Assembly: GCF_003060825.1 (NCBI RefSeq)
Contig: NZ_CP028922.1
Span: 3,744,001-3,808,000, forward strand
Length of the DNA: 64,000 bases
DNA from: Paenibacillus sp. CAA11
GTDB taxonomy: Bacteria; Bacillota; Bacilli; Paenibacillales; Paenibacillaceae
Direction: 5' to 3'
Shown: piece by piece, positions 9,739-60,340 of the stretch
How the letters are laid out: every line of letters begins with the position of its first letter
How positions within the stretch are numbered: position 1 is the first letter of the stretch
Notes under the pieces: model-generated
What the model was told of the DNA's origin: nothing
The model's database searches: none
What the model saw: only the letters and a program-made list of their open reading frames with translations
Made by a program: the position numbers and the translations under genes

Positions 9739-10822
9739 GTCTTTTCCCTCCAAGCAAAAATTTGACTACCTTATGAGATACCTTCTCCGCCATATAGCCC
9801 TGCGGAATTTCCCACTCCGGCGGCAGCTCCGACATGAGTACGGCAGCGGCCGCGATGCGCTCTGCATCTAATCCGGAAACTACATTGCTGCCGCAATCCA
9901 CCGTCTCCGGACGCTCTGTAGTTCGGCGAAGCGTGACTGTCGGGACGCCCATAATACAGCACTCTTCTTGCACGGTTCCGCTGTCTGTCAGAGCACACTT
10001 TGCATACTGTTCAAGCTTCATAAAATCGAAGAAGCCGAACGGCTCATAAAACTCAATCAGCGGGTTAAGCTGTAATCCGAAGTCACTGTCCAGCCTGGAT
10101 CGGGTTCTAGGATGAACACTGCAGATGAGTCTTAGGCCGGTTATCTCTGCGATCCGGTTAAGCCCCTTCATAATTTCGAGTAAATGCTCCCTCACATCCA
10201 CATTCTCTGCCCGGTGGACCGTCACCAGAAAATACTGCCCCGGCGTCAAGCCCAGCTTCTTCATAATTAGGCTCTGCGCAGCCTGCGGTTCATAATGCTT
10301 CATCACTTCATAAATAGGATTGCCGGTAAGCACGATTCTGCTGCTGGGGACTCCTTCCCGCAGCAAATGCTGCCGGCTCTGCTCGGTATAAGGCATATTG
10401 ATGCTGGAGATGGCATCAATGACCTTGCGGTTCTTCTCCTCCGGAACCTGTAGGTCAAAGCAGCGGTTGCCTGCCTCCATGTGAACAACCTCAATTCCCA
10501 TGCGCTCAGCGAGCAGTGCGCACAAGGCGCTGTTGGTATCTCCGAGCAGAAGCACCTTGTCGGGGCGCTCCTGCAGCAGAATTCTCTCCACCTCGGCAAA
10601 CATCGCTGAGAGCTGCTCTCCAAGAGAGGCTTGATGATTCAGTACCACATAATCCGGCGCCCGGAGCCCGAGCTCCCGAAAAAAAACGCCGCTCAGGCTC
10701 TCGGTAAAGTTCTGTCCCGTATGCACCAGTGTATGCTTCGCGGCATACCGGTCGAGCAGCGGGATGATCAGACTGAGACGGATAATTTCAGGCCGGGTGC
10801 CTAAAATGGTCATCAGCTTCAT
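9728..10822 (-). CDS. UDP-N-acetylglucosamine 2-epimerase family (WecB/CapG/FnlC-like)
   Basis: A 364-residue non-hydrolysing 2-epimerase. It has LGTRPEIIRLSLIIP at the N-terminus, LGDTNSALCALLAERM, VVHMEAGNRCFDLQVPEE, TGNPI, VTVHRAENVD, and DSGTVQEECCIMGVPTVTLR with the family catalytic and UDP-binding residues. It carries MEAGNRCF rather than the MEAGLR of housekeeping WecB/MnaA, which matches CapG/FnlC-type enzymes acting on 6-deoxy-L-hexosamines. With the next two genes it makes a plausible route to UDP-L-FucNAc, UDP-L-RhaNAc or UDP-L-QuiNAc. Confidence 0.88.
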   Translation of the reverse strand: MKLMTILGTRPEIIRLSLIIPLLDRYAAKHTLVHTGQNFTESLSGVFFRELGLRAPDYVVLNHQASLGEQLSAMFAEVERILLQERPDKVLLLGDTNSALCALLAERMGIEVVHMEAGNRCFDLQVPEEKNRKVIDAISSINMPYTEQSRQHLLREGVPSSRIVLTGNPIYEVMKHYEPQAAQSLIMKKLGLTPGQYFLVTVHRAENVDVREHLLEIMKGLNRIAEITGLRLICSVHPRTRSRLDSDFGLQLNPLIEFYEPFGFFDFMKLEQYAKCALTDSGTVQEECCIMGVPTVTLRRTTERPETVDCGSNVVSGLDAERIAAAAVLMSELPPEWEIPQGYMAEKVSHKVVKFLLGGKRHVQ

Positions 10823-12465
10823 CGTTTCACTCCCTTTGCAAATTGCCCGGACTTCGAACTGCTTCCAGCCTTTTTGGGGCTGCCCTCAACTTTTTTGGAG
10901 CTGCCCCCGCTCTTCTTAGAGCGGGCTGCTTGCCCGGATCTTCTCTTCAGACTTCGACTTGTGTTACCGAGTGTTCTGGAAGCGGTTCGCTGTTTTTGGT
11001 GAACAGCCGCTTTATTTCCTTGATGGCGCAGATTCCGGGTCTTAGGCGTCCGTTTCTGCTTCAGGCCCTTTCGCCTCCGATGAACTCCCGCCAATCTTCG
11101 TTTCCGCCTGCGAGCCGCAGTCATCCGACGCCCTCGTCCTGAAGGCCCTTGCTGGCGCAGGGAAATCACAGCCATGCCGCCGTCCTGCTGCTCCATGCGC
11201 AAGCGATCCGGCAGGGCTTCTACCCATTTGGATACCTCCAGGCGAAGCCCTTCTTCATGACTGTCCGGCCCGTAAAGAGCTGCCGCCTTCTCCTTGGCTT
11301 GCTGCAGCATGGGCACCATATCCTCATGCCTCTGGCTCAGCAAGTGGGCCGCCTTCGCTATGAGCTCGGCCGTGTTCCCGGAAGCGGCCAGATTCTCCTG
11401 CAGTCCGCAGGCCTGAAGGATCTCCGCAAGCCCGCCGGAGGCATATGCGCATACCGGCTTGCCGAAATTGATTGCTTCCACAGCGGTCATGCCGAAGCCC
11501 TCGGGAATCAAGCTGGGAATGACTACAAGATCCATCGCACAATAGGCTTCCGCCACATGTGCCAGATAAGGAATAAAGCAGAACCGGGATCTGTACCCTG
11601 CATTTTCGATTTTGGTCATACAGGCCTGATAGTAGCTCTCATCATTGTTCTGGCCGATAACAAGAAAGCGAACATCCTCACGGTCAGCGCACAGTGCAAG
11701 CGCCATATCCACGAAATGCGCCCATCCTTTCTCCGCAATCAGGAAGGAAGAGATGTAACCGACAAGCTTCTGGTCCTTCTTCACGCCCAGCTCCTTGCGC
11801 TTGTGCTCGCGCAGAAGAGGCCAGTAGACGGGTTGATACTCTTCAGGCTCCCACGATGGGGGGAGCAGTCCAACCTTATCCGTGAACTCCTGCCCGGAGA
11901 AGCGTTCCAATACGGTAGAGGAGACACCGATAATTCGGCTGCTGCAGCTATGAATCAGCTCAATGGCTTGGGCCGTAAAGTTTGTCTCGGTAATCCTCTC
12001 ATTAATGTTCCAGATCACTGGAACCCCTCGTTCTTTTCCCGCAAGAGCGGGCAGTACGTTCACACAGGAATTAACTAATAACAGATCCGCCTGCTCCCTC
12101 TCAAGCAGCTGACAAAGGCTATTTAATATAGGACTGCCTCTCAATTCCTCCAGCTCAGCCTGAAGGAGCGGGCTTGGGTTATACATGCTGTACACGCCAG
12201 GGTAATCGTGAACGATCGTTCGGATGCCCGCATATCTCGCCCGGCGCGTCAACTCCCCTTCCTTAGGTACCACCAGCGTACAGCAGAAGTAACGAGATAG
12301 CCTTCGGGCGAGAAGCAGAACCAGCTTCTCCGCCCCCGTTATGCTCTTCGTGTTGCCGACATGGGAGAACAGCAACAGGTTTGCTCGATAGTCCATGTCT
12401 TGTGTCTGCCCGGACGTTAGCCGGTAAGACGCTCCCCCCTCCTCCGGTAACTTACTCCATGACAA
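10819..12465 (-). CDS. Family 4 glycosyltransferase with long basic C-terminal tail
   Basis: A 548-residue GT-B enzyme. The core (about residues 25-430) has TGAEKLVLLLARRL, VGYISSFLIAEKGWAHFVDM, and the donor-site VIPSLIPEGFGMTAVEA with the E-x7-E spacing. The last 105 or so residues are low-complexity, rich in Arg, Lys and Ser (RRRKRR, HRRRKG, KKSGGSSKK, KKAGSSSK), with no predicted fold. Such a tail is not part of GT4 catalysis and recalls basic spore-coat proteins; attachment or assembly is my inference. The start is uncertain: a TTG at 12465 inside the upstream gene, or ATG at 12396. It overlaps the genes on both sides. Confidence 0.85.
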   Translation of the reverse strand: MSWSKLPEEGGASYRLTSGQTQDMDYRANLLLFSHVGNTKSITGAEKLVLLLARRLSRYFCCTLVVPKEGELTRRARYAGIRTIVHDYPGVYSMYNPSPLLQAELEELRGSPILNSLCQLLEREQADLLLVNSCVNVLPALAGKERGVPVIWNINERITETNFTAQAIELIHSCSSRIIGVSSTVLERFSGQEFTDKVGLLPPSWEPEEYQPVYWPLLREHKRKELGVKKDQKLVGYISSFLIAEKGWAHFVDMALALCADREDVRFLVIGQNNDESYYQACMTKIENAGYRSRFCFIPYLAHVAEAYCAMDLVVIPSLIPEGFGMTAVEAINFGKPVCAYASGGLAEILQACGLQENLAASGNTAELIAKAAHLLSQRHEDMVPMLQQAKEKAAALYGPDSHEEGLRLEVSKWVEALPDRLRMEQQDGGMAVISLRQQGPSGRGRRMTAARRRKRRLAGVHRRRKGLKQKRTPKTRNLRHQGNKAAVHQKQRTASRTLGNTSRSLKRRSGQAARSKKSGGSSKKVEGSPKKAGSSSKSGQFAKGVKR

Positions 12466-13585
12466 GGCTGACCAGCTCGTTCAGCCTATGGCTGTACGTG
12501 TGCTCGCTCCAAGTCCGCTCGAGTGCCCGCAAGGCGATTTCCCGGCGCTCTTCCTCATGGGTCAAATAATAGTCCACCTTCTCCAGCAGCTCCTGCTGCG
12601 TGCTGAAGGTCACAATTTCTACTCCAGGGGTATAGAACCGGGAAAGGTCAGTTCGTGCATCGACCAATTGAAGCGTGCCGGACGCGGCAATTTCAAAAGT
12701 ACGCGGATTGGGAGATATCGCTTCTAGTCCTAAGGAATTGTTGTTAATCTGCTCATCATCGTGCGCCCGGTGCAGATTTATCACAAGCTTGCTGCCGCTG
12801 TAAGTTCTGGCCGTCTCCGCAGCTTCCATCCACTTGCCCAACTCCACCTGTCCAGGGTAATTCGAAGCTTCGGGAAGACGATCCCACCAGATCCCGCTGA
12901 TATGAAGCCCCCGGTTCATCAGCTCGCCAATGACAGGGCGGAAGAAGTTGACTCTGTTCCAGTATCCAGAACCGACAAAGCTGATATTTCTGCGGATAGC
13001 TGAGCGTTCCAGTGTCGGTCTATAGTGCTCCGTGAACGCCCCGAACGGCAGGTAGAATACATTTGCACAGCCATGCTGACGGTAAAAATTTACACAGTTC
13101 AGCTCAAGGGTGAAAACATAATCATAATGCCGGGCAATCTCTAACGTTCGGTCCGTATAGTAAGGATCATCTGTCAGCCATATCGCCGTCTTGACCCCGC
13201 AGCTGCGGATTGAATCCACCGTCTCAAGCGGCATCTCCATTCCATCCAGCACAAGCATCATATCAGGTCTAGTCTCCTGTACCAGCTCGGTTACAGACTG
13301 AACAGGGGTGGTCACTGTGACGTCAGCAACCAAGCTGCGCAGGGTCGCTTCAATTCCTTCATCGATAGGGGAATAAGGGTATCCCTTGCCAGAGGTCACA
13401 TATAAGACATGCAGCTGGCGCTTTGGAAAGTCTGGCTTGGGCTTCCGAACAATGTAACTCGCGCGGCCTCGAAGATAACCCTCCTCATAACCGTCCCGGT
13501 ATCCCTGCTCTCTGCCCTTTTCAAGCTCCGTCGGCAGATTTTTGCGGGCAGGCGCCGCATGCTTTTTTAGGCGATGTCTGTACAT
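12452..13585 (-). CDS. CgeB-like glycosyltransferase with N-terminal GY repeat
   Basis: A 377-residue protein of the CgeB type (spore-maturation glycosyltransferase of Bacillus). Core features are WLTDDPYYTD, DYVFTLELNCVNFY, FVGSGYWNRVNFF, KLVINLHRAHDDE and NPRTFEIAASGTLQLVDARTDL; the last resembles the C-terminal nucleotide-binding half of these GT-B enzymes. Before the core, residues about 22-37 read GREQGYRDGYEEGYLRG, a 4-residue-spaced Gly-Tyr repeat shared with other proteins of this locus. The start ATG follows AAAGGAGTGG. It is a tandem paralogue of the gene at 13601-14791. The carbohydrate acceptor is unknown; B. subtilis CgeB acts on the spore surface. Confidence 0.87.
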   Translation of the reverse strand: MYRHRLKKHAAPARKNLPTELEKGREQGYRDGYEEGYLRGRASYIVRKPKPDFPKRQLHVLYVTSGKGYPYSPIDEGIEATLRSLVADVTVTTPVQSVTELVQETRPDMMLVLDGMEMPLETVDSIRSCGVKTAIWLTDDPYYTDRTLEIARHYDYVFTLELNCVNFYRQHGCANVFYLPFGAFTEHYRPTLERSAIRRNISFVGSGYWNRVNFFRPVIGELMNRGLHISGIWWDRLPEASNYPGQVELGKWMEAAETARTYSGSKLVINLHRAHDDEQINNNSLGLEAISPNPRTFEIAASGTLQLVDARTDLSRFYTPGVEIVTFSTQQELLEKVDYYLTHEEERREIALRALERTWSEHTYSHRLNELVSLVME

Positions 13586-13600
13586 AAGCCCACTCCTTTA

Positions 13601-14791
13601 TCAAATTGATGCTGGATCTCCTTTGCCAAAGGCGATTTGCAGCAGCCGTGAAATTCGTTCATGGTAGGAATGCTTCGTTCTTGTGGTCCATAAACCGCGC
13701 CAGGCAAGCTGCAGCCTCAAAGGCTCGTTAGCTAGATAGAACTCGATTTTTTGACTCAGTTCCTCTGGAGAGCTGAATGTCTCGAGATCATAGCCTGGTC
13801 GATAGTAGGCGGACAGATCTTCCCGCACATCCGTAATCTGCAGTGTACCGCAGGCACTGATTTCATAAGTGCGGGGGTTAATTGAGCGGGCGGAAAGATC
13901 TCTTCCATTGCGATTGTCCTGACCCGCACCTGCGGGCCGATGCAGATTAATCACAATTTTGGCTCCGTTATAGTAGCGAACGGTCTCATCCGTCTCAACC
14001 CAGCCGCTGCGGATGTAGGGCCCTAGCAAATCGAGCCGGCTCAGACGGTCCCAATGGCCTCCGGCGATCACGACTTTTTTTCCTACCAAAGAAGGCGCCA
14101 GCGCATCGAACAGTGCAGCCCGGTTGCGGAACGCATTACCGATAAAGCACACATCTGTCCGGTATTCTCTCTTAGACTCTAGAGGACGGAAGATTTCAGC
14201 GTCCGCTGCAAGCGGCAAATAATGAACCTGACTTGCCCCCGAAGCCCGGTACAGCGGAATACACGACAATTCATGGGTAAAGACCACATCATAATGAGGA
14301 GCTATACCCGCGGTATCATCTGAAAAATAAGGGTCATCCACAAACCAGACAGCGGTCCGAATACCTACGGAGCGTAAATAGTCGATTTGCTCCAGGTGGT
14401 CAGCGGGAAATACGTGGAGCGAGTTCATGACCAGTACCAGATCAGGCTGCCATGCCTTCGCTTGGGCCAGCATGTCTGCAGGTTCTGCTACTGTAAGCTC
14501 TGCCGTCACCTCCCTTAGGGCTCGAATTACACTTCGATCGATGGCATCAAAGCCCTGGGGCACATACATGACCCGCCACTTTTCCCTCACAGGAAGCGGG
14601 GCGCTGGTCCGCTCCAAGACAGCCTGGCAGCCTCCATAGCGAACCCCTTCCTCATATCCGCTCTCATATGCATTCCTGGAACCGGAAGGCCTTTTCACAG
14701 TCTTCAAGGCGCTCATTCCTATCTTCAGATTTGCCTTACTCAGGACTTTATGGGTCTTAATAAATATATGCGGAGGGTACATGTGCATCAT
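13601..14791 (-). CDS. CgeB-like glycosyltransferase, tandem paralogue
   Basis: A 396-residue paralogue of the next gene, with matching landmarks: WFVDDPYFSDD, DVVFTHELSCIPLYR, DVCFIGNAFRNR, KIVINLHRPAG, SINPRTYEISACGTLQITDVREDL. The Gly-Tyr repeat is short (AYESGYEEGVRYGG, about residues 42-55). An in-frame TAG precedes the first ATG, so the start lies at 14791 or at a later Met; ATG 14716 (MSALKTVKRP) would suit the sigma-K-like promoter at 14799. It heads an eight-gene run down to 6264 and begins 48 bases past a perfect hairpin. Confidence 0.85.
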   Translation of the reverse strand: MMHMYPPHIFIKTHKVLSKANLKIGMSALKTVKRPSGSRNAYESGYEEGVRYGGCQAVLERTSAPLPVREKWRVMYVPQGFDAIDRSVIRALREVTAELTVAEPADMLAQAKAWQPDLVLVMNSLHVFPADHLEQIDYLRSVGIRTAVWFVDDPYFSDDTAGIAPHYDVVFTHELSCIPLYRASGASQVHYLPLAADAEIFRPLESKREYRTDVCFIGNAFRNRAALFDALAPSLVGKKVVIAGGHWDRLSRLDLLGPYIRSGWVETDETVRYYNGAKIVINLHRPAGAGQDNRNGRDLSARSINPRTYEISACGTLQITDVREDLSAYYRPGYDLETFSSPEELSQKIEFYLANEPLRLQLAWRGLWTTRTKHSYHERISRLLQIAFGKGDPASI

Positions 14792-14798
14792 GGACGAC

Positions 14799-14828
14799 TA
14801 CCCTATGAACGGCGAAATTGGCGGATGT
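14799..14828 (-). promoter_or_regulatory. Sigma-K-like promoter candidate for the cgeB operon
   Basis: Minus-strand CATAGGGTA (14799-14807) matches the sigma-K -10 pattern CATAnnnTA fully. ACA (14826-14828) lies 18 bases upstream, 1-2 longer than usual. The site is very close to the first ATG, so if real the gene probably starts at ATG 14716. Confidence 0.35.
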
Positions 14829-14855
14829 CCCCCTTATTCATACACTTAGGAAAAG

Positions 14856-14905
14856 CACAAGCAGGCCAAAGCACTGAGAGAATTCAGTGCTTTGGCCTGC
14901 TTGTG
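14856..14905 (-). terminator. Perfect 22-bp hairpin with CTTTTCC tail
   Basis: Arms of 22 bases (14856-14877 and 14884-14905) pair without a mismatch around a 6-base loop. On the minus strand it is followed by CTTTTCC. It separates the four-gene small-protein operon from the cgeB operon. Its length exceeds an ordinary terminator. Confidence 0.65.
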
Positions 14906-14944
14906 AATCCAATACTGCAAACAATACTGTCCGGGCAGTAATCG

Positions 14945-14989
14945 GGGCCGCCAAAGTTAGCCTGATCAACAGGCTAACTTTGGCGGCCC
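14945..14989. terminator. Second perfect 20-bp hairpin
   Basis: Arms of 20 bases (14945-14964 and 14970-14989) pair perfectly around a 5-base loop, and there is no T-run on either side. It lies just after the stop of the 116-residue GY-repeat protein and 40 bases from the hairpin at 14856. It may be an mRNA 3'-end stabiliser, a terminator, or the residue of a small mobile palindrome. Confidence 0.5.
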
Positions 14990-15006
14990 TCAAGCACCCG
15001 CTTTAA

Positions 15007-15357
15007 TTATTGCTTCTCCTGCCCGCGGTACGCCAGCTTATGTCCATCCTCATATCCTTTAGAGAAACCTGCATTAAAGCCTTCCTGATAGGACTGGTCA
15101 TACCCCTGCTGATAGAGGCCGGCAGCATCCCCCTCTGGCTGAACTTCAGCAAGAGGACTTACAACTCGGAGCTTCCTATTCTTTAAGGCAGATATTTTTC
15201 TGCGGCTTCTTTTCTTGCGCAGCCTGCGAGCGGCGGCTCTATGGCCAAGGGGTCTGCGAAGAGCCTTGCGTGAACGTTTTACGCTCCCTTTGCGCTTCTT
15301 CCCGACAATCGCTCTTTTGCGGCGGCGGGCTGAAATTGCTTTTTTTCTCAACTTCAT
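15007..15357 (-). CDS. Small protein: Arg/Lys-rich head plus GY repeat, no catalytic domain
   Basis: I do not recognise a family. The 116-residue protein has two parts. Residues 1-65 are extremely basic (RRRKR, KKRKGSVKRSRK, RRLRKKRSRRK). Residues about 80-112 are a run of six Gly-aromatic units with 4-residue spacing (YQQGYDQSYQEGFNAGFSKG, then YEDG). The same two modules occur as attachments on neighbouring glycosyltransferases, so this looks like the bare form of the tag. The start ATG follows GGAGG by 6 bases and overlaps the upstream stop (ATGA). It is the last of four coupled small genes. A scaffold or glycan-acceptor role in the spore coat is inference; FliH-type repeats have a similar GxxxG pattern. 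Confidence 0.75.
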   Translation of the reverse strand: MKLRKKAISARRRKRAIVGKKRKGSVKRSRKALRRPLGHRAAARRLRKKRSRRKISALKNRKLRVVSPLAEVQPEGDAAGLYQQGYDQSYQEGFNAGFSKGYEDGHKLAYRGQEKQ

Positions 15358-15665
15358 TGGGCTACCTCCAGTTCTCTCATAAACGGACCTGCAATTAGAG
15401 GAATCAAATCCTTATTCATCCAAGGCGATTCAGGAGTTCCATGATAAACAGGGGGAAAAGCGATTCCCGTCAGAAGCTGCGCCATCGCCTGCTGATATTT
15501 CGCCATTTGCCCAATATGGACTGCCAAATGCCCGGCCGTCTCTTCTGAATAGCTAGAGAGATCTGCAATACTATCAAGAATGCGCGCTACGGCAGTCTGG
15601 CTCTGCGCAATAGCCCCAATCAGATTTAGCTTGGCTTCACGCTCTTCCGAAAGTCCTGTAATCAT
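15354..15665 (-). CDS. Small helical protein of unknown function
   Basis: Not assigned to a family. The 103-residue protein has an N-terminal amphipathic helical half (AIAQSQTAVARILDSIADLS, about residues 18-37) and a second helix with HIGQMAKYQQAMAQLL. The C-terminus is Pro-rich (FPPVYHGTPESPW). The segment AQSQTAVARILDS aligns with AHSHQQMARVLDA and AKMQWNVAMMLEA in the next two genes, so the three are probably divergent relatives. It overlaps both neighbours by 4 bases (ATGA), which argues for equal expression. Confidence 0.7.
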   Translation of the reverse strand: MITGLSEEREAKLNLIGAIAQSQTAVARILDSIADLSSYSEETAGHLAVHIGQMAKYQQAMAQLLTGIAFPPVYHGTPESPWMNKDLIPLIAGPFMRELEVAQ

Positions 15666-16012
15666 TTTTCATCTTCTCCAAACCCCGCGCCGCCCCCATA
15701 CATTCCGGCCATACCTCCCATGCCGCCTTCTCCGGAACCTTCATCTGAAGCAAGAAGGGTCTTTAAATTGCTGCATAGTCCATTCTCCATCTTGGTTAAC
15801 CCTTCTATGACCTCTACCAAACCTTCATGGAAGCCTAGGGGCTGCTCCAGCTGCTTTGCGTGGCTTTCAAAGCTATGAGCATGAAAATGGTTCAAAGCCC
15901 AATTACGCGCTTTCTCTGCCTCTACCGCCTTAGCCTCAAGCATCATGGCAACATTCCACTGCATCTTGGCAGCAGCATCCAACATATTCACGAAGGCGTG
16001 TTCCCTGCTCAA
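15662..16012 (-). CDS. Small helical protein with Gly/Met-rich C-terminus
   Basis: Unrecognised 116-residue protein. Residues 1-85 are predicted helical, with NMLDAAAKMQWNVAMMLEAK near the start and a His/Phe-rich stretch (NHFHAHSFESH). The last 25 residues are Gly- and Met-rich (GEGGMGGMAGMYGGGAG), ending acidic. The TTG start at 16012 is supported by GGAGGGG 7 bases upstream. It is the second gene of the four-gene set and is coupled to the next by ATGA. Gly/Met-rich ends are common in structural spore-coat proteins, but no specific role can be given. Confidence 0.7.
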   Translation of the reverse strand: MSREHAFVNMLDAAAKMQWNVAMMLEAKAVEAEKARNWALNHFHAHSFESHAKQLEQPLGFHEGLVEVIEGLTKMENGLCSNLKTLLASDEGSGEGGMGGMAGMYGGGAGFGEDEK

Positions 16013-16032
16013 CGTAAATCCCCTCCGTTCAT

Positions 16033-16323
16033 TTACTCCTCATCCTCTAAGCTTTTAAGCTCTGACATCACATGAGTTAAGTTCTCCGCCATAGCTTCCT
16101 GAAGATCAGCAATAACATTCAGGTAAGAAACCAAGCTTTTATTAATCCGTCCGGCGCTCTCCATCATACCGTCAATACCATCGAATTCTGGCTGTTTATC
16201 CGGCAGCTCATGAATAATCTGCGCCATGCGTACAGCAATTTGGCGTTCCGCATCAAGCACACGGGCCATTTGTTGATGAGAATGAGCCATGTGCGTGATG
16301 ATATCGGTTACCTTCTGCTCCAC
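16033..16323 (-). CDS. Small helical protein, first of four-gene set
   Basis: Unrecognised 96-residue, largely helical and acidic protein. It shares MAHSHQQMARVLDAERQIA with the two following genes and has a second helix SLVSYLNVIADLQEAMAEN. The GTG start at 16323 lies 6 bases after AAGGAGGA; a GTG two codons earlier would overlap that site. A sigma-K-like promoter candidate lies about 60 bases upstream. The N- and C-terminal halves show a weak similarity of pattern, which suggests four-helix packing or coiled-coil assembly. Confidence 0.7.
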   Translation of the reverse strand: MEQKVTDIITHMAHSHQQMARVLDAERQIAVRMAQIIHELPDKQPEFDGIDGMMESAGRINKSLVSYLNVIADLQEAMAENLTHVMSELKSLEDEE

Positions 16324-16384
16324 TTCCACTCCTCCTTGCCCATGACCGGAACAGGCACAAACCGCCCGGCATCTTTGCTTCTGC

Positions 16385-16412
16385 CAGCATATGCCGGAGC
16401 GGTTCGTTAGGT
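16385..16412 (-). promoter_or_regulatory. Sigma-K-like promoter candidate for the small-protein operon
   Basis: On the minus strand ACC (16410-16412), a 16-base spacer and CATATGCTG (16385-16393) match the sigma-K pattern, with one change in the last -10 base. It lies 62 bases upstream of the GTG start at 16323. Confidence 0.45.
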
Positions 16413-16441
16413 GACAGCAATTAAGCCTATCGTCTCCCGCT

Positions 16442-17755
16442 TTACAAATCCTCAGCTAGAATACGGTTTGGCGCCAGAAGCGGCAGTCCGTGGGAGTAGG
16501 CTGTCAGAACCTTGGGGTTTTGGACCTCTTTAGCCTGAAATCCCCAGGCCATGGCAGCCCATGGCGTCACAAATGGACGCAGCTGACCGCCGTACACCTG
16601 ACAGACCTCCTCCTGTGAAAGAGCGATCACGTCTCCTTCCTGAAGTTCGTCAAGCCCGCTCGCTTCCTGCCTCTCCTTCATGAAGGGCAGCTGCCTCCAG
16701 CTCTTCTCTCCTTGAAGAGGCATTTTGCTCAAGTCTCTTTGGGAGACTCGTACAGCCTTGCCGGCTTGCTTCGCCTTCGGCGGAATATCGCTTACCCGGT
16801 AGCGCCGCCCGTCCTCCAGCCAATATAGACAGCCGCTGCTGCTCTTGAGCAGCACATGCGTGGGATAAAAATCTTGATAAGGACGCGGCGGACAAGGGCT
16901 GTTCAGGTTCACGCCGAGCTTCTGAAGAAGCTTGGCTGGTTCTCCCCACTTCTGCGCAAAATAGCTCCGGTTGTCTTCGTTGATCTGCTGAAATTGTGCA
17001 GCAGCCAAGCTCTTCATCGTGACGCTTCCAAAGTGATGTATAAATGCATCGCCAGCGATCATCAACCTTCGTCCCTGAACCCTCACTCGCAATCCCCAAT
17101 CATCATCCTCAAAATTACCAGTCCGAAAGCCTTCATCCAAATAACCCGTCTGTTCAGCGAATTTCCTGTCCATCAGCAGACAGAAACCCACAAGCCGGTC
17201 CGTCTCCCGCCATTTGCCCGGGTCCCCAGCATTATAGGCGGCGGCAAAGGTCCACATGTCCCGAACTTCCCGGTAGGGGACATCGATCTGCTGCTCACCG
17301 CCAATATAATTCGTTACCGGCCCGACAGCACCAATATCTGTTCCGCTGTGCAGGCAATGCAGCATATTGTCCAGCCACCTGGGCGTTACTAGAATATCGT
17401 TGTTCAGCAGAACCACTGTACTCCCTTTGGCCATCATTAGCCCGGTATTCACTGAAGCGGCGAAGCCGGCATTGCGGGCATGGACCGCAACGCGGATTTT
17501 GCGCGAGCTCAGCGCCTGAAGCGTTCCATCTGTGGAGGCATCATCAACCACAATGATCTCATAAGGAAGCCGGGTATGCGCTTCAATGGATTCTAAGCAG
17601 CTCAGCACCATCTCCTTCTGATTATAAGTGGGAATTATGATGCTGGTTCCCTCAAAGGGAAAGTAGAAATCCGTCCGTCCGGCCTGTTGCCCTCGTTCAT
17701 AGCCTGCGCGAAAGCCTGCTTCATAACTTGCCTCACGCTTGGTCGCCTTTGCCAC
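16442..17755 (-). CDS. Family 2 glycosyltransferase with N-terminal GY repeat and C-terminal extension
   Basis: A 437-residue protein. Residues about 10-28 carry the Gly-aromatic repeat (ASYEAGFRAGYERGQQAG). A GT-A domain follows (about 35-275): TSIIIPTYNQKEMV, EIIVVDDASTDGTL, VVLLNNDILVTPRW, GFRTGNFEDDDWGLR. This is close to the rhamnosyltransferase-like GT2 group. The last 150 residues contain LLKSSSGCLYWLEDGRRYRV and are not assigned. The GTG start at 17755 follows AGGAGGTGAT by 6 bases; the GTG at 17764 lies inside that site. It is the last gene of the run beginning at 22716. Confidence 0.86.
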   Translation of the reverse strand: MAKATKREASYEAGFRAGYERGQQAGRTDFYFPFEGTSIIIPTYNQKEMVLSCLESIEAHTRLPYEIIVVDDASTDGTLQALSSRKIRVAVHARNAGFAASVNTGLMMAKGSTVVLLNNDILVTPRWLDNMLHCLHSGTDIGAVGPVTNYIGGEQQIDVPYREVRDMWTFAAAYNAGDPGKWRETDRLVGFCLLMDRKFAEQTGYLDEGFRTGNFEDDDWGLRVRVQGRRLMIAGDAFIHHFGSVTMKSLAAAQFQQINEDNRSYFAQKWGEPAKLLQKLGVNLNSPCPPRPYQDFYPTHVLLKSSSGCLYWLEDGRRYRVSDIPPKAKQAGKAVRVSQRDLSKMPLQGEKSWRQLPFMKERQEASGLDELQEGDVIALSQEEVCQVYGGQLRPFVTPWAAMAWGFQAKEVQNPKVLTAYSHGLPLLAPNRILAEDL

Positions 17756-17775
17756 TACGATCACCTCCTTTCCGA

Positions 17776-18855
17776 TTAGAAGGTCAGTTCCCCCGTACCC
17801 AGCTTGTCGGCAGCATGGCCGAAATCCAGGGCGATCTTCCCCTTTCGTTCAGCAAGTTCAACGCAGATAAGAACAGCTGCGATTCCTGCCGAGACCAAGG
17901 CGATGTCGAAGTCTACCTGTGTTGCACGGTCTAGAATCATCGGTACATCTTTGACCCCCTGCACAGAGGCAATGACCCCAGCAACCTCAATCCCCGCCCC
18001 TCTTAGAACCTTCGCCAAAGCCTCGGCTTTATTTCCAATGGCAAGAATTCTTCGGCCTCTGAGCAGCTGGCTCATCAGACCAGCCTCACATAATCCAAAG
18101 TTAATTGTGGAGGTGGTAAGCGGCAGCTGCCTGAGGCTCAGGCCAGCATGCTTAAGTAAGGGAAAGAGCAAGCCTTGAAAGGAAGGATGTCGGGATTCCG
18201 GAACGCCGATGAGGTGCGCACGGCGCAATGCGTCTAGGAGCGCATCACGAACCGAAGGTGCTGGCAGCTCGACACCGGCATAAGGCAGAAAGGGCCCGCG
18301 CTTCACGGCCTCTTCTGTCGGAATGAGCACCTCATGCGCCAAGGTGAGCAGCTCGCCATCCCCTAAACGAATCAGCGATAGGGGTCTGGACTCTGCTACG
18401 GCAGTTTGCAGGATGTGAAATACAGACTCAGGGCCGGCAAGCTTCACGAAATGATCTTCAGGCAGCTGCTTAAGCCCGGCGGCGATCAAGCTTTCAGCCG
18501 TGCTGCCGGGCAGCAAGGTGTAGCGGGGGAGCAGCTTGCCGACAATCCCCTCTCCCCCTTCAAAGATCCCCTCCCGATAGCCCTCTCGATAGGCGTGCTC
18601 CTTCAAGCGCTTGAGCTCGGCTTCAGGGGGAGCCTTCTCAGCAGGACTAGTAGGCTGCCGGAAGGGGATTTCAGACGGCATAGAGGATTCTTCTTCTCTG
18701 ATCTTAAACCTAGAGAGGCGGGAACGCAGCCTGTTGTGCTGTGCCGAGGCTCGACGCTTAGCCCGGCCCCGCCGATACAGATTCCTCCTGCTTTTAGAAG
18801 CTCTCGGCTTAAGCGAGGAGGCCTTCTTGTTTTTTTTACGCTGCGGCATTGCCAC
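17776..18855 (-). CDS. GT-D fold glycosyltransferase with basic head and GY repeat
   Basis: A 359-residue protein in three parts. The N-terminal 55 residues are very basic (QRKKNKK, SRRNLYRRGRAKRR). Residues about 87-100 carry AYREGYREGIFEGG. The C-terminal domain (about 130-359) has LSLIRLGDGELLTL, the hallmark of the GT-D/DUF1792 fold, with RILAIGNKAEALAKVLRG and GVKDVPMILDRATQVDFD later. GT-D enzymes transfer glucose onto glycoproteins in streptococci. Acceptor and donor here are unknown, but protein glycosylation suits the locus. The start is GTG 18855 or ATG 18849, after GGAGCTGGGTGG. Confidence 0.82.
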   Translation of the reverse strand: MAMPQRKKNKKASSLKPRASKSRRNLYRRGRAKRRASAQHNRLRSRLSRFKIREEESSMPSEIPFRQPTSPAEKAPPEAELKRLKEHAYREGYREGIFEGGEGIVGKLLPRYTLLPGSTAESLIAAGLKQLPEDHFVKLAGPESVFHILQTAVAESRPLSLIRLGDGELLTLAHEVLIPTEEAVKRGPFLPYAGVELPAPSVRDALLDALRRAHLIGVPESRHPSFQGLLFPLLKHAGLSLRQLPLTTSTINFGLCEAGLMSQLLRGRRILAIGNKAEALAKVLRGAGIEVAGVIASVQGVKDVPMILDRATQVDFDIALVSAGIAAVLICVELAERKGKIALDFGHAADKLGTGELTF

Positions 18856-18919
18856 CCAGCTCCTTTAAATATGGGAACATTCGAAATTCGCTGTGTTTTC
18901 AGCTCGTTTCGTGAGAGTT

Positions 18920-19906
18920 TTATATAAACCTGTACTTCCCGCTTTCAATACGGTAGAGCCATTCTCCCGCTTGTGAGTACCAGGCTACAGTGCTTGTAAG
19001 CCCCTCCTTCAGACCAATCTCCGGCTTCCACCCCAGTTCCGCATAGATCTTAGAGGGGTCGATAGCGTAGCGGCGGTCATGTCCCAAACGGTCAGGCACC
19101 TGCTTGATCAGACTATGAGACTTGCCCAGCAAATCCAAGATCATCTCGACCAGGGTGCGGTTGTTCACCTCATGATGGCCCCCAATGTTATAGACCTCTC
19201 CCGGCTTTCCGAGCCGGAGAACAAGATCAACCGCACGGCAGTGATCGTGAACATGAAGCCAGTCCCGCACGTTCATACCGTCCCCGTAGAGCGGAATCTC
19301 CTCATTTTTCAGAGCACGGGATATGACCGTAGGGATCAGCTTCTCCGGAAACTGCCTCGGGCCATAATTGTTGGAGCATCGCGTAATTACCGCCGGAAAA
19401 CCATAGGTTTGGAAGAAAGAACGCACCATCAGGTCGGACCCGGCCTTGCTCGCCGAGTAGGGGCTGTTGGGCGCAAGCGGCGAATCCTCTGTGAAGAAGC
19501 CTTCAGCTTGAAGGGAGCCATAGACCTCATCTGTCGAAATGTGTACGAACTTTTTGACACCGGCCTGACGGGCAGCTTCCAGCAATTTGAGCGTCCCCAG
19601 CACATTGGTGCGGACAAACTGCTCGGGTGCCGAAATGCTGCGGTCTACGTGGGACTCTGCCGCAAAATGTACAACCGCGTCCACTTTTTCGGCGAAAGCC
19701 TTCGCTATATCCGTCTCGTTCGTGATATCCCCGCGAATCCAGCGGTAGTGCGGATGATTCTTAAAAGCTGCCGCGTTGTCAGGATTGCCCGCATAAGTGG
19801 CAGCATCCAGATTGACAATCCGCAAAGACGGATACTTGTTCAGCATATATTCAATGAAATAACTTCCGATAAAGCCGAGTCCTCCGGTTACCAGCACTGA
19901 AATCAT
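18920..19906 (-). CDS. rmlB: dTDP-glucose 4,6-dehydratase (RmlB/SpsJ)
   Basis: Makes dTDP-4-keto-6-deoxyglucose from dTDP-glucose. The 328-residue SDR has VTGGLGFIGSYFIEY, HFAAESHVDRSI, STDEVYGSL with the catalytic Asp-Glu pair, YSASKAGSD with the Tyr/Lys pair, and TRCSNNYGPRQFPEKLIP, all diagnostic. It overlaps rmlA by 4 bases. In B. subtilis the equivalent pair spsI-spsJ belongs to the sigma-K-dependent spore-coat polysaccharide operon and is followed by rmlC/rmlD homologues. Here no rmlC is present in the window, so the keto sugar may feed another pathway. Confidence 0.94.
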   Translation of the reverse strand: MISVLVTGGLGFIGSYFIEYMLNKYPSLRIVNLDAATYAGNPDNAAAFKNHPHYRWIRGDITNETDIAKAFAEKVDAVVHFAAESHVDRSISAPEQFVRTNVLGTLKLLEAARQAGVKKFVHISTDEVYGSLQAEGFFTEDSPLAPNSPYSASKAGSDLMVRSFFQTYGFPAVITRCSNNYGPRQFPEKLIPTVISRALKNEEIPLYGDGMNVRDWLHVHDHCRAVDLVLRLGKPGEVYNIGGHHEVNNRTLVEMILDLLGKSHSLIKQVPDRLGHDRRYAIDPSKIYAELGWKPEIGLKEGLTSTVAWYSQAGEWLYRIESGKYRFI

Positions 19907-20634
19907 GGCTTATCCTCCCTCAGTCGTTCTGCAGCCTCCCTTAAGGATTCGAAGGTTCCTGCGTCAGTCCACCATTTTTCCAGTACGTCATATTCCAATT
20001 TCCCGGCCTGTGCATATAAATTGTTGACATCGGTGATCTCCAGCTCTCCTCTGGCTGAAGGTGCGATCGCAGCAATTCGCTCAAATACCTCGTCATCATA
20101 CATATATATCCCGGTTACACAAAAGTTTGATTTAGGCTGCTCCGGCTTCTCCTCAATACAGCGGATCAGCTGCGGATGAGCCTCATCAAAGACCGGCACT
20201 CCATAGCGCCTGGGGTCCTTCACCTGCTTGAGCAGCACACGGGCACTGCCAGGCTTCTGGGCTTCGAACCTTTTGAGGTACGGCGTCAAATCATCCATAA
20301 ACAAATTATCCCCCAGAAGCACGACAAATCGGCCCGCTTCAGGAATAACCTCTCTCGCAAGCTGAAGCGCTTCGGCGATACCGCCCGCACCCTCCTGAAT
20401 CTTGTAGGTCAAATTAACGCCATACTCCTTGCCGCTCCCTAGAAAATCCGTATACAACCCAGCAGATTGCTTGCTGATCACGATGAGGATATCCGTAATT
20501 CCCGCCTGCCTCAGCGAAGCAATTGCGTAATAGATCATCGGCTGCTTCCCTACCGGAAGCAGATGCTTATTTAACAGCCGGGTCAAGGGAAGCAGCCGGG
20601 TGCCTGTACCGCCTGCCAATATAACGCCTTTCAC
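19903..20634 (-). CDS. rmlA: Glucose-1-phosphate thymidylyltransferase (RmlA/SpsI)
   Basis: Forms dTDP-glucose from dTTP and glucose 1-phosphate. The 243-residue protein has the nucleotidyltransferase signature ILAGGTGTRLLPLT, then NKHLLPVGKQPMIYY, LLGDNLFMDD, IEEKPEQPKSNF and TGIYMYDDEVF. It belongs to the short class resembling SpsI rather than the longer E. coli RmlA. It overlaps the GT2 gene upstream and rmlB downstream, so the three are translationally coupled. Confidence 0.94.
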   Translation of the reverse strand: MKGVILAGGTGTRLLPLTRLLNKHLLPVGKQPMIYYAIASLRQAGITDILIVISKQSAGLYTDFLGSGKEYGVNLTYKIQEGAGGIAEALQLAREVIPEAGRFVVLLGDNLFMDDLTPYLKRFEAQKPGSARVLLKQVKDPRRYGVPVFDEAHPQLIRCIEEKPEQPKSNFCVTGIYMYDDEVFERIAAIAPSARGELEITDVNNLYAQAGKLEYDVLEKWWTDAGTFESLREAAERLREDKP

Positions 20635-21884
20635 GGCTCTCCTCCTCCTGGGTCCGTCTTCCTCTTTTTGTGATGAACTGATTGCTCTGACCTTAACGAC
20701 AAATTTCGTTCAGCCGCCAGAACTGCCCTTGAATTCGTCTGCCACAGCAGTCTGCGTCCATGTCTTCTCATCGCTTCCTGCAGCGCTTCTACATGATCTC
20801 CGACAATCAGCTTCGCTACCTGGTTGCCCATTCCTGTATTGCTCGGGCGGATTCGGTTGCGCCCTATGACGTCAACACTGCAGGGAGCGCATACTTGCAG
20901 CCCCTCCAGAATTGCAATCGCCTGGGCCTTAGGGGGCACCCCTAGGGCCGAACTGCCTACGGTTGCAATCGCCTTCCTGGACAGCGCATGCGGTACAGCT
21001 GTCAGTGAATTGGCCTGAAGGTCCGGCCGGCCCAGCGCCTGATTTAAGAAGAGCTTGCATCTTGTCACCTGATCCTGCTGGGGAAAGCTTGGTAGAAACG
21101 GAGTGATGTCATTGAGCGCTGCATCTGCGCCTCCGTCTACAGCATATAGGAACGCCGCTAATTCTTCGGCAGGCACCAGCATATCCCCATCCAGAAATAG
21201 AACGATATCGCCAGAAGTAAGAGTGGCCCCTATAGCGCGGCCAACATCATGCCCGAGGCGCTCTCGGTAAGACACCATTATCGTGTCCGGTGATTCTGCA
21301 GCTCTCTCCAGGCTCCGGTCGGTACAGCCATTCAGAACAACAACCTTCTCACGGACGGGCAGACGGCCCAGCTCATGCAGCAGCTGGCCGATGGTCTCCT
21401 CTTCATTGCACACAGTAATGACAACCGAAGCGCTGCCCCGCAGCGGAAGAGGAACGCTTCTTTGCAGCTCTGCCTTTATTCCGGCTGCATCGGCATAGCC
21501 CTGGCGATAAGCAAGGCATACCTGAGCAGCATCCGCAAAGGATGGCCTTGGGACCATGTATTGATGAAACCAAGCGTTAAGGCCGCGCTGATAAGCCTCG
21601 ACAACCCGACGTTTGTCCTCATCGCTCATGGGCTTCTGGACAACCAGCGCCCGGTCCCTGGCTCCATCTGCCGCCCCGGCCTCATAGGCAAGCTGTTGCT
21701 GGGCAAGGGTATGCTGTTTTATGGACGGCTGCTTCCTAGCCTGCCTGGTCACATTAGGATGAAGCCGGACTCTGCGCTTCAGCTGTTTCTTCCGGCGAAT
21801 CCTCCTTGCCAGCCTCCGCCGGAGAGGCTTTCCCCGCTTTACCCTCGCTGTTCGCAGGCCGCGCACAAGCTTCGCTTTCCTCAA
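20631..21884 (-). CDS. Family 2 glycosyltransferase with basic head and degenerate GY repeat
   Basis: A 417-residue protein. The first 55 residues are strongly basic (RRRLARRIRRKKQLKRR). Gly-aromatic units follow in AYEAGAADGARD (about 67-78), AYQRGLNAWF and LAYRQGYADAAG. A GT-A domain covers about 150-370: SVVITVCNEEETIGQLL, VVLNGCTDRS, GDIVLFLDGDMLVPAEE with its DGD metal site, and LTAVPHALSRKA. The TTG start at 21884 is placed after GAGGTGAG. It is paralogous to the upstream gene at 21892. Among its neighbours it is the clearest case of a catalytic domain joined to both tag modules. Confidence 0.84.
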   Translation of the reverse strand: MRKAKLVRGLRTARVKRGKPLRRRLARRIRRKKQLKRRVRLHPNVTRQARKQPSIKQHTLAQQQLAYEAGAADGARDRALVVQKPMSDEDKRRVVEAYQRGLNAWFHQYMVPRPSFADAAQVCLAYRQGYADAAGIKAELQRSVPLPLRGSASVVITVCNEEETIGQLLHELGRLPVREKVVVLNGCTDRSLERAAESPDTIMVSYRERLGHDVGRAIGATLTSGDIVLFLDGDMLVPAEELAAFLYAVDGGADAALNDITPFLPSFPQQDQVTRCKLFLNQALGRPDLQANSLTAVPHALSRKAIATVGSSALGVPPKAQAIAILEGLQVCAPCSVDVIGRNRIRPSNTGMGNQVAKLIVGDHVEALQEAMRRHGRRLLWQTNSRAVLAAERNLSLRSEQSVHHKKRKTDPGGGEP

Positions 21885-21891
21885 TGTTCAC

Positions 21892-22716
21892 TCACCTCAA
21901 TTTATCCCGTAGGCGGTTCAGGTCGGGAAATCCGCCGCGGCTTCCTAAGGAATCGGTCAGTAGCCCCACAGCCTCCAGGTGATCTCCTGCAACGAGCGCC
22001 GTTAACGGGTCATCCCCGCTGCCAGGCCTCCGGCGCTTGCGATTCATCCGGCCCACAGCCACCGTGTGAACCGCCTTGATATCGAGGCCAAGCATCACAG
22101 CGGCGGCCTGGGCCAGCGGTGGTGTGCCCAGTGCATCAAGGCCGATGGCCCTGGCTGCTCGCCAGCTTAAAGCATGCGGAACCGCTGTAAGGGAGGCACC
22201 GCCCAGATCAGGACGGGCTAGCATCACATTCAGCACATGCTTTGCAAGCACAACCGGATGGACAGGCCGCTGTTTGCGCGGTCCCGGATACCCGTTCAGA
22301 GCTACATCCACACCGTGGAAGACTGCACTTACATAAGGCCTTAGATCCTCTGCAGGAATGACCATATCTCCATCGGTAAACAGCAGGATATCTCCTTTGG
22401 CTGCTTCCGCTCCATAGCGTCTTGGAACATCATGTCCTAAAGGAGCCTCGAATTCCAACACTCTTGCCCCCATCGCCTTGGCCAAAGCCGCTGTAGCATC
22501 CGTGCATCCATTAGCTACGACAATAACTTCGGAGCAGGGATGCACGGCGAACGCCTCGGCAACAGCGCCTTGGATCGTCCTGCTTTCGTTCATCGCCGGA
22601 ATGATAACAGATACGATCGGATGCGGATGATTATGATATCTGGGCTTGGAGGAGGAGGGATTCCTTCTCTTCCGATGCCGATGCGGCCGCCTCCGGAGTC
22701 TGCTTCGCTTACGCAT
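21892..22716 (-). CDS. Family 2 glycosyltransferase with short basic head
   Basis: A 274-residue GT-A enzyme and paralogue of the next gene. It has VSVIIPAMNESRTIQGAV, VVANGCTDATAALAKAMG, GDILLFTDGDMVIPAEDL, and LTAVPHALSWRAARAIGLDA. The N-terminal 25 residues are Arg/Lys/His-rich (RKRSRLRRRPHRHRKRR), a shorter form of the basic head. No GY repeat is seen. The start ATG follows GGGAGGAAAG by 3-8 bases. It is the first gene of a six-gene run down to 16442. Confidence 0.85.
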   Translation of the reverse strand: MRKRSRLRRRPHRHRKRRNPSSSKPRYHNHPHPIVSVIIPAMNESRTIQGAVAEAFAVHPCSEVIVVANGCTDATAALAKAMGARVLEFEAPLGHDVPRRYGAEAAKGDILLFTDGDMVIPAEDLRPYVSAVFHGVDVALNGYPGPRKQRPVHPVVLAKHVLNVMLARPDLGGASLTAVPHALSWRAARAIGLDALGTPPLAQAAAVMLGLDIKAVHTVAVGRMNRKRRRPGSGDDPLTALVAGDHLEAVGLLTDSLGSRGGFPDLNRLRDKLR

Positions 22717-26588: not shown

Positions 26589-26864
26589 TTAGGTTTCAAG
26601 CTGCCGCTTGAGCAGCGCCAAATCAGGAATTGTATAGGTACTCGGCAGCCTGGAGGCAATCTGGGCCCATAGGGGATCCTCCGCAGACCAGGCGCTGGGG
26701 GTCATTGCCCTCAGCTCCATGAGATGCTGCTCGGCTTCGCCTGTAAGGTCCAAGGTTTGGATGAACGAGGGGTCGGGAAACTGCAGCGTATCCGGAAGAA
26801 GACTGCTCAAGGCCTGCCAAACTGCGACATCTTCTTCGGATTGTAAGCCATTAGCTATCCTCAT
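26589..26864 (-). CDS. Small protein with an internal duplication, function unknown
   Basis: A 91-residue protein I cannot place. Its two halves resemble one another: residues about 14-36 (VAVWQALSSLLPDTLQFPDP) and 63-88 (PLWAQIASRLPSTYTIPD) share Trp, Ala, a Leu-Pro pair, a Pro-Asp pair and a downstream Leu. It looks like two copies of a 30-residue helix-loop unit. The start follows AAGGGGGGAC and overlaps the stop of the FG-GAP/GT4 gene, so the two proteins are made together. It may be a partner of that enzyme. Confidence 0.65.
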   Translation of the reverse strand: MRIANGLQSEEDVAVWQALSSLLPDTLQFPDPSFIQTLDLTGEAEQHLMELRAMTPSAWSAEDPLWAQIASRLPSTYTIPDLALLKRQLET

Positions 26865-40567: not shown

Positions 40568-40589
40568 GTAACCGAAAAAAAGAGTACGG

Positions 40590-40686
40590 ACGATTCTCTA
40601 CGCTGGCATTATCCAGTTCAGATTGACGGTCAGCAGCGGATATATGTAGCTGCAATCTCAGCCCGGCTATCATCCCCGGGCACCCG
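40590..40686 (-). ncRNA. TPP riboswitch (THI element)
   Basis: The minus strand shows the conserved TPP aptamer blocks: GGGTGCCC at the 5' side, GGGCTGAGA, then CTGAACTGGATAATGCCAG and CGTAGAGAA. It lies upstream of the ykoEDC-like operon with a terminator behind it, so high thiamine pyrophosphate should shut off precursor uptake. The downstream ACCC-type pairing element is divergent. Confidence 0.93.
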
Positions 40687-40707
40687 TATCGCTATGCAAT
40701 TGTCAAT

Positions 40708-60140: not shown

Positions 60141-60159
60141 TTCAAGGTTTGGGTTCCTG

Positions 60160-60300
60160 CTGCATAGGCCTACGAGGTTAGCTGACGGATTCGGGCATGC
60201 ACAGGTCGCCCTATTCAACTGTCCTTCTGCTGCTGTACCCTGCAGAAGAGACAGTAAGAAATTCACCCCAAAAGATTGGTTCCCCCGTTTTCATGATCAT
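60160..60300 (-). ncRNA. c-di-AMP riboswitch (ydaO/yuaA leader)
   Basis: The minus strand carries the conserved ydaO/yuaA blocks in order: GGGGGAACCA, TTTTGGGGTGAAT, GCAGGGTA, AGGGCGACCTGTGCATG, then CCGAATCCGTCAGCTAACCT followed by CGTAGGC. It is followed by a terminator and ktrBA, matching the ktrAB leader of B. subtilis. c-di-AMP should turn expression off. Confidence 0.95.
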
Positions 60301-60340
60301 GAAATTCGGCTCATATTCCGTTTCTCATATTTCATCATGG

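Follow-up and report, generated by a model that had tools for sequence, protein, structure and literature searches.

Why do glycosyltransferases of unrelated folds, encoded side by side, share a short glycine-repeat segment, and why does a small neighbouring protein carry this segment as well? The question is raised by a locus in the window, the whole stretch of 64,000 nucleotides analysed here, which belongs to a genome of 4,888,410 bp in a single contig. On the minus strand, a block running from 24071 to 5118 contains nucleotide-sugar genes (RmlA-like, RmlB, UDP-GlcNAc 2-epimerase and Polysacc_synt_2), several glycosyltransferase families and one YhcN/YlaJ sporulation lipoprotein. A YheC/D ATP-grasp gene (24277) is divergent from this block. 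The grouping of glycosyltransferases with nucleotide-sugar genes resembles that of the B. subtilis cge and sps genes, which are reported to shape the spore crust; however, such a tag is not mentioned in the excerpts of that report used here (PMC7439481).

The tagged genes and ladders described below are on the minus strand. Five proteins encoded between 12452 and 18855 have a glycine at each fourth position of the segment, with an aromatic residue usually next after the glycine; we refer to this arrangement as the GX3 ladder, or tag. Two of them are CgeB-like enzymes, CgeB1 (12452..13585) and CgeB2 (13601..14791). Both match PF13524 and PF12996 above cut-off; these two matches underlie their likeness to CgeB, a label of the earlier note. 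Their catalytic fold is taken to be GT-B, and Foldseek matched CgeB1 to GT4-type structures. A GT2 enzyme, presumably of the GT-A fold, was identified by domain search at 16442..17764. The gene at 17776..18855 encodes a GT-D fold enzyme with a basic N-terminus, which matches PF22882 / NF040628 above cut-off and, structurally, DUF1792. The fifth protein, of 116 residues (15007..15357), is made of an Arg/Lys-rich N-terminal half (15166..15357) and a C-terminal tag. As domain and homologue searches found no catalytic domain in it, we call it the bare-tag protein. Its basic half varies in sequence among 19 aligned homologues while keeping its basic character. Small genes (15354-16329) sit between the GT2 gene and the bare-tag gene, and their homologues occur nearby in relatives (sm_16033 in 27, sm_15662 in 21 and sm_15354 in 18 of 40 loci).

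In alignments of orthologues from Paenibacillaceae, with 57-92 rows per family, conservation of the core glycines of the ladder was 85-100%, amid N-terminal sequence that is for the most part variable. In CgeB1, the ladder spans residues 24-40 (13466..13516), with G24, 28, 32, 36 and 40 conserved at 96-98% (92 rows). The CgeB2 ladder (residues 42-53, 14633..14668; G45, 49, 53) and that of the GT2 enzyme (residues 14-29, 17678..17725; G17, 21, 25, 29) are 100% conserved in 79 and 57 rows, respectively. In the GT-D enzyme, residues 89-100 (18556..18591) contain G92, 96 and 100, conserved at 85-94% (57 rows). The tag of the bare-tag protein covers residues 82-110 (15028..15114), with G85, S89, G93, 97, 101, 105 and A109. 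Here, G93, 97, 101 and 105 are invariant in 19 rows and in 65 rows, part of the loci behind the 65 rows having been picked with a motif that includes both G97 and G101. G85 is 67% conserved, with a small residue at this position in at least 80%. Since tag matches served to select the loci, the bare-tag motif is to some extent bound to look conserved. Overall, the data show a glycine-ladder segment under purifying selection, gene-specific, on GT-B, GT-A and GT-D enzymes and on a domainless basic protein.

These data modify the description given in the earlier note, which had counted six proteins from four or more unrelated fold groups, each with the run ahead of its catalytic domain. Sharing of one module by unrelated folds is confirmed, and five of the six proteins do carry the ladder. 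As CgeB1 and CgeB2 are paralogues of each other, the catalytic folds are three, in addition to the bare-tag protein. In the latter, the tag is C-terminal, behind the Arg/Lys-rich half, and its supposed six units are five glycines and one serine at period 4 (85-105), followed by A109. The sixth protein, a second GT2 with a basic N-terminus found by domain search and alignment (20631..21884), had been described as having a degenerate tag. It has instead two conserved half ladders, A66-G70-x74 (residues 66-74, 21663..21689; G70 97% conserved in 48 rows) and x125-G129 (residues 125-135, 21480..21512), where G129 is 100% conserved and positions 126 and 130 are aromatic in at least 80%.

The resemblance to the GxxxG repeats of FliH pointed out earlier is borne out by the composition of the units and by weak matches of FliH models to the bare-tag protein (E 3e-4 to 1e-3). 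The layout AxxxG(xxxG)mxxxA and Tyr/Phe at x1 are common to the tags and to FliH/YscL, and Glu/Gln/Ala at x3 is a partial likeness. According to the excerpts of PMC2674601 used here, Tyr/Phe make up more than 45% of x1 in FliH repeats and Glu/Gln/Ala about two thirds of x3, aromatics being very rare at x2 and x3. In our tags, Tyr/Phe/Trp account for 59-84% of units at x1, depending on the gene family, and Glu/Gln/Ala at x3 for 40, 42, 47, 58 and 71%. At x1 the tags agree well with these published FliH values, and at x2 and x3 they agree in part. Departures are the 40-58% Glu/Gln/Ala at x3 in four of the five families, and the aromatics at x2 in GT-D (43%) and at x3 in CgeB2 (32%), which are near zero in the others. 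Over its full length, the FliH model reached at best 19.9 bits on the bare-tag protein against a cut-off of 192, with 30-45 model positions matched, and the FliH family was absent from a Pfam search of this protein. A second likeness is to Yae1-Lto1, where glycines at period 4 occur in a soluble protein, as in 15007 (PMC4523923, in excerpt). Yae1_N (PF09811) scored 24.3 bits on 15007, 13.9 on 12452 and 12.9 on 16442, all under the cut-off of 27.5, which some places in relatives passed (4/29 genomes).

Within the window, YxxG[YF]xxG occurs in 6 of 325 ORFs of at least 50 aa, namely the five named proteins and 43010, where the match is isolated. Searched against the whole genome, a profile of the segments from the six proteins of the earlier note returned its own six source segments at E 5e-8 to 5e-4, by construction, and four weaker places, the best at E 0.31 in a 39-aa frame; this locus is thus the only convincing hit. 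The DNA pattern for YxxGYxxG was not enriched genome-wide (61 sites as compared to 70 for the reversed control). What is distinctive about the tag is its concentration and length at the locus, not the bare YxxGYxxG count.

The same concentration was found in the named relatives, which are Paenibacillus and kin. In 40 loci selected for a match of any member to the tag or to Yae1_N, a score of at least 10 was reached by 26/26 bare-tag proteins, 28/31 GT2, 30/36 CgeB1, 29/33 CgeB2 and 22/30 GT-D, as compared to 3/31 for GT2_20631, 2/368 unassigned ORFs and none in the other named groups. In a set of 80 named loci selected by the bare-tag motif, so that bare-tag proteins scored 51/51 by construction, the same threshold was reached by 36/39 GT2, 46/59 CgeB2, 40/70 CgeB1 and 25/41 GT-D, with 7/46 for GT2_20631 and 8/869 for unassigned ORFs. 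At a score of at least 9, these values became 39/39, 56/59, 69/70, 31/41, 21/46 and 68/869, respectively, and nine full-length GT-D orthologues among the 41 scored below 9. Shuffled group sequences reached the tag score in 0-3% of cases in both sets. Overlapping frames in the greedy ORF lists cost some bare-tag genes (real ones were read at L217-L219), and group sizes are therefore lower bounds. With a profile of the bare-tag segments alone, the top 25 of 821 other ORFs were only CgeB1, CgeB2, GT2 and GT-D; scores were weak, from 13.1 to 6.2 bits, and 16 exceeded the best of 4926 decoys (6.6).

The tag does not follow the catalytic domains outside this system. A GT2 paralogue of about 250 aa present in many of the same loci carried it in 0/24 cases in the 40 loci and 1/40 in the 80 loci. 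It was found in none of 45 places with GT2 or GT-D paralogues outside the system, read by alignment (L202 separately): 0/13 GT2 relatives in genomes lacking the bare-tag protein, 0/21 further GT2 paralogues read (23 of 53 places without a locus being left out) and 0/11 GT-D paralogues. In many untagged GT2 and GT-D paralogues, the N-terminal extension is almost absent. The possibility that the repeat is a general feature of these glycosyltransferase families, mentioned in the earlier note, is rejected on the basis of these paralogues. Among the best 120 of 314 GT-D homologues, the start of the domain could be recognised in 117, and 115 of these have a ladder by a loose rule of at least two glycines. 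In the two others, the called start falls inside the ladder; one is the window's own protein, whose public version (P0003, 263 aa) begins within its ladder.

A protein search with 15007 gave only two relatives, whereas genome searches gave many. At E 1e-3, a bare-tag profile that takes in the basic half had matches in 149 of the 198 genomes searched from the order, not all matches having been read. At class level, 27 of 299 Bacilli genomes were matched, 25 of them from the window's family. The two beyond the family are weak, one FliH-like by eye and one Gln/Tyr-rich with a weak Yae1_N match. As to the history of the tag, the nearest non-identical relative of a tag core belonged to the same gene family in 343 of 349 cases, and similarity across families was not raised within genomes (26.18 against 26.06 between genomes, P 0.15). 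Each tag thus belongs to its own gene and seems to be old. The earlier note had suggested addition or exchange of the module; that genes exchanged it recently is not supported by these data. An original spread of tags among genes, or a convergent origin, may account for their likeness. In six genomes of genus g7, about 26-40 kb separate the bare-tag gene from those of GT2 and GT-D, which are nevertheless tagged. One relative (L207) has an unlinked GT4-like enzyme, with Pfam matches below cut-off, carrying the same basic leader and ladder, and another (L213) has a second bare-tag protein.

A link to spore formers, as anticipated in the earlier note, is supported: in the genomes searched, matches of the bare-tag profile were confined to the window's order apart from the two weak ones, the non-spore formers being covered by one genus. 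Neither outcome named in that note as refuting its reading was observed. In this genus (g8), the bare-tag protein and SpoIVA are both absent in 8/8 genomes. SpoIVA was present in all 22 other genomes of a hand-chosen set, of which 10 have the bare-tag protein and 12 lack it. Hence, the bare-tag protein was seen only alongside SpoIVA, yet not in every genome having SpoIVA. The loss in g8, a single genus, perhaps reflects one event. The link of the tag system to sporulation is thus supported, resting largely on this genus; the locus also has YheC/D ATP-grasp and YhcN/YlaJ genes as sporulation neighbours.

The length of the bare-tag ladder was compared with the presence of tagged partners. Outside the window's family, 15 genomes that have a tagged GT2 show 4-7 glycines in this ladder, as compared to 3-5 in 13 genomes that lack one (P 3e-5, uncorrected for kinship). 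Absence was checked across whole genomes; presence was checked in this way in three genomes and at the locus in the others. The GT-D ladder was not found in some of the 15 genomes, and 13 genomes lacking tagged GT2/GT-D nonetheless retain the bare-tag protein. No such contrast was observed within the window's family, where four g14 genomes without tagged GT2/GT-D have long ladders. Correlations of ladder length were 0.40 for the bare-tag protein with GT2 and 0.57 for GT2 with CgeB2, the other eight pairs giving -0.18 to 0.22. In this comparison, the bare-tag protein was misassigned in at least three loci (L057, L071, L204), and four enzyme assignments are doubtful (GT-D L062, L071, L081; GT2 L208). 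Bare-tag ladder length was uncorrelated with CgeB1, CgeB2 and GT-D (rho -0.07, -0.15 and 0.16).

Predicted structures were considered for two enzymes. The CgeB1 model has a GT4-type fold, with N-terminal helices 20-31 and 33-47 placed over the ladder at moderate confidence (64 and 76 in 10-residue blocks, below most of the domain). The 17776 model matches the GT-D fold and has a helix at 78-94 that breaks at residue 95, inside the ladder. Given this predicted break, an uninterrupted helix in the monomer is not favoured.

We propose that the ladder is a helix-helix docking module by which spore-glycan enzymes co-assemble with the bare-tag protein, the basic half serving as an anchor; we give this reading about an even chance of being correct. 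In its favour are the conserved core glycines, the untagged paralogues, the tags kept by GT2 and GT-D at a distance in g7, the likeness to FliH and Yae1-Lto1, the sporulation link and the longer bare-tag ladder where a tagged GT2 is present. Against it are the helix break in the GT-D model, the absent correlation of bare-tag ladder length with CgeB1, CgeB2 and GT-D, the low-scoring GT-D orthologues, the genomes with a bare-tag protein but no tagged GT2/GT-D, and the departures from FliH composition. Tag segments would form helices whose glycine faces pack mutually, as a GX3 zipper, bringing the tagged enzymes and the bare-tag protein into one assembly within the mother cell. As hub or adaptor, the bare-tag protein would have its polycationic half hold the assembly on an anionic surface, such as the forespore coat, membrane or nascent glycan, where the local enzyme cluster would build the spore-surface polysaccharide. 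In Yae1-Lto1, an adaptor pair, glycine mutants fail to form the complex, and the ladders pair two different proteins (PMC4523923, in excerpt). Because ladder pairing was demonstrated there by mutation and has been proposed for FliH, we infer by analogy that it may occur here too. The present ladders nevertheless differ from those of Yae1-Lto1 in being shorter, in being unconnected with Fe-S assembly and in serving as a tag on several enzymes. A broader version, plausible but falling somewhat short of an even chance, is that the GX3 helix is a portable docking code, often with a polybasic leader, recruiting unrelated glycosyltransferases to the bare-tag scaffold. With the same reserve, this code may cover GT-A, GT-B and GT-D enzymes, and in one relative a GT4-like enzyme, and set up a glycan factory of several enzymes on the spore as it develops, so that it would be to glycosyltransferases what the adaptor is in Yae1-Lto1.

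A less likely alternative, which still deserves weight, is homotypic: as in FliH, each tag would bring about dimers of the enzyme that carries it, the bare-tag protein being a further self-associating basic component, of coat or crust. The gene-specificity of the tags agrees with this, as does the persistence of CgeB ladders where tagged GT2/GT-D are absent, and the FliH study argues, in its excerpts, that dimerisation would be between two repeat-bearing helices (PMC2674601). Homotypic pairing leaves unexplained, however, why several unrelated folds at one locus carry the tag and paralogues elsewhere do not, and why bare-tag ladder length tracks GT2 presence outside the window's family. We consider it improbable that the segment is instead a localisation signal, a basic tail and Gly/Tyr helix read by another coat factor such as the small proteins of 15354-16329, or that its tyrosines are crosslinked into the coat without enzyme-enzyme docking, both variants being taken together. 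Basic tails do recur on several locus proteins, the small genes are situated between the GT2 and bare-tag genes and have homologues nearby in relatives, and x1 is occupied by Tyr/Phe. Yet Tyr can be replaced by Phe, Trp or other residues, whereas the core glycines are not replaced; thus, glycine packing rather than tyrosine chemistry seems to be selected.

That the ladder is an ordinary structural helix packing on its own catalytic domain appears very improbable. In the CgeB1 model, it leads into helix 33-47 directly ahead of the first strand, but the lower predicted confidence there than in most of the domain argues against this packing. Moreover, the ladder is found in four enzyme families and in one protein without a domain to pack on, and GT2 and GT-D domains occur in paralogues without it. 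Chance or low-complexity Gly/Tyr composition has practically no probability left: isolated YxxGYxxG sites are indeed no commoner than the reversed control, but the glycines are near-invariant in 57-92 rows per family and shuffling seldom restores the score. It was rejected on this conservation of the ladder.

If docking through the ladder is the correct reading, it bears on a poorly known matter, the gathering of glycosyltransferases and their placement at the surface of the spore. Little seems to be known of Paenibacillus coats; of the anchor genes of B. subtilis, a search in P. polymyxa found only cotE, according to excerpts of PMC11278568. GX3 helices themselves are already known, and what is new here is their sharing by several glycosyltransferase folds; our literature search found no prior description of the tag. 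Besides FliH and Yae1-Lto1, the ladder provides a further context in which GX3 helices occur. With its changeable glycines, it offers a short handle for testing enzyme co-assembly and is a candidate short fusion tag for enzyme clustering.

Finally, Arg/Lys-rich tails, unmentioned in the earlier note, occur on 15007, 17776, 20631 and 21892 and at the C-terminus of 10819. Basic coat proteins of the CotB/CotG type are spore-associated and have Arg/Lys-rich low-complexity tails. The tail of 15007 may be comparable to these.

A public version of the tagged GT-D enzyme (17776-18855, minus strand) is 263 residues long, and its start falls within the tag, the segment with a glycine at every fourth residue. 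A second homologue of this protein has its start likewise placed within the tag. N-terminal tags of this kind may be hidden by the called starts.

A basic leader followed by the glycine ladder was also observed on a GT4-like enzyme encoded in one other genome, at a position distant from the locus (L207:7974-9242). This protein is an additional enzyme type bearing the tag.

Three small genes (products of 98-116 residues; 15354-16329) lie between the tagged GT2 gene (16442-17764) and the gene of the bare-tag protein (15007-15357), which has a basic N-terminal half and a C-terminal tag. An NCBIfam search with the three small proteins gave no family match. Homologues of these genes are also found close by in many relatives. 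One relative's locus encodes a second bare-tag protein (L213:14418-14747).

Outside the Paenibacillaceae, a protein rich in Gln and Tyr (L220:2990-3718) contains a YNQGFNQGFNQG run; its match to the glycine-ladder family Yae1_N (PF09811) is weak.

Two further enzymes of the window have Arg/Lys-rich tails without a glycine ladder, at the C-terminus of a GT4-like enzyme (10819-12465) and at the N-terminus of a GT2 (21892-22716). The window also encodes an 848-residue protein with a GT4-type domain fused to FG-GAP repeats (26861-29407), and carries a TPP riboswitch (40578-40697) and a c-di-AMP riboswitch (60152-60321), both on the minus strand.
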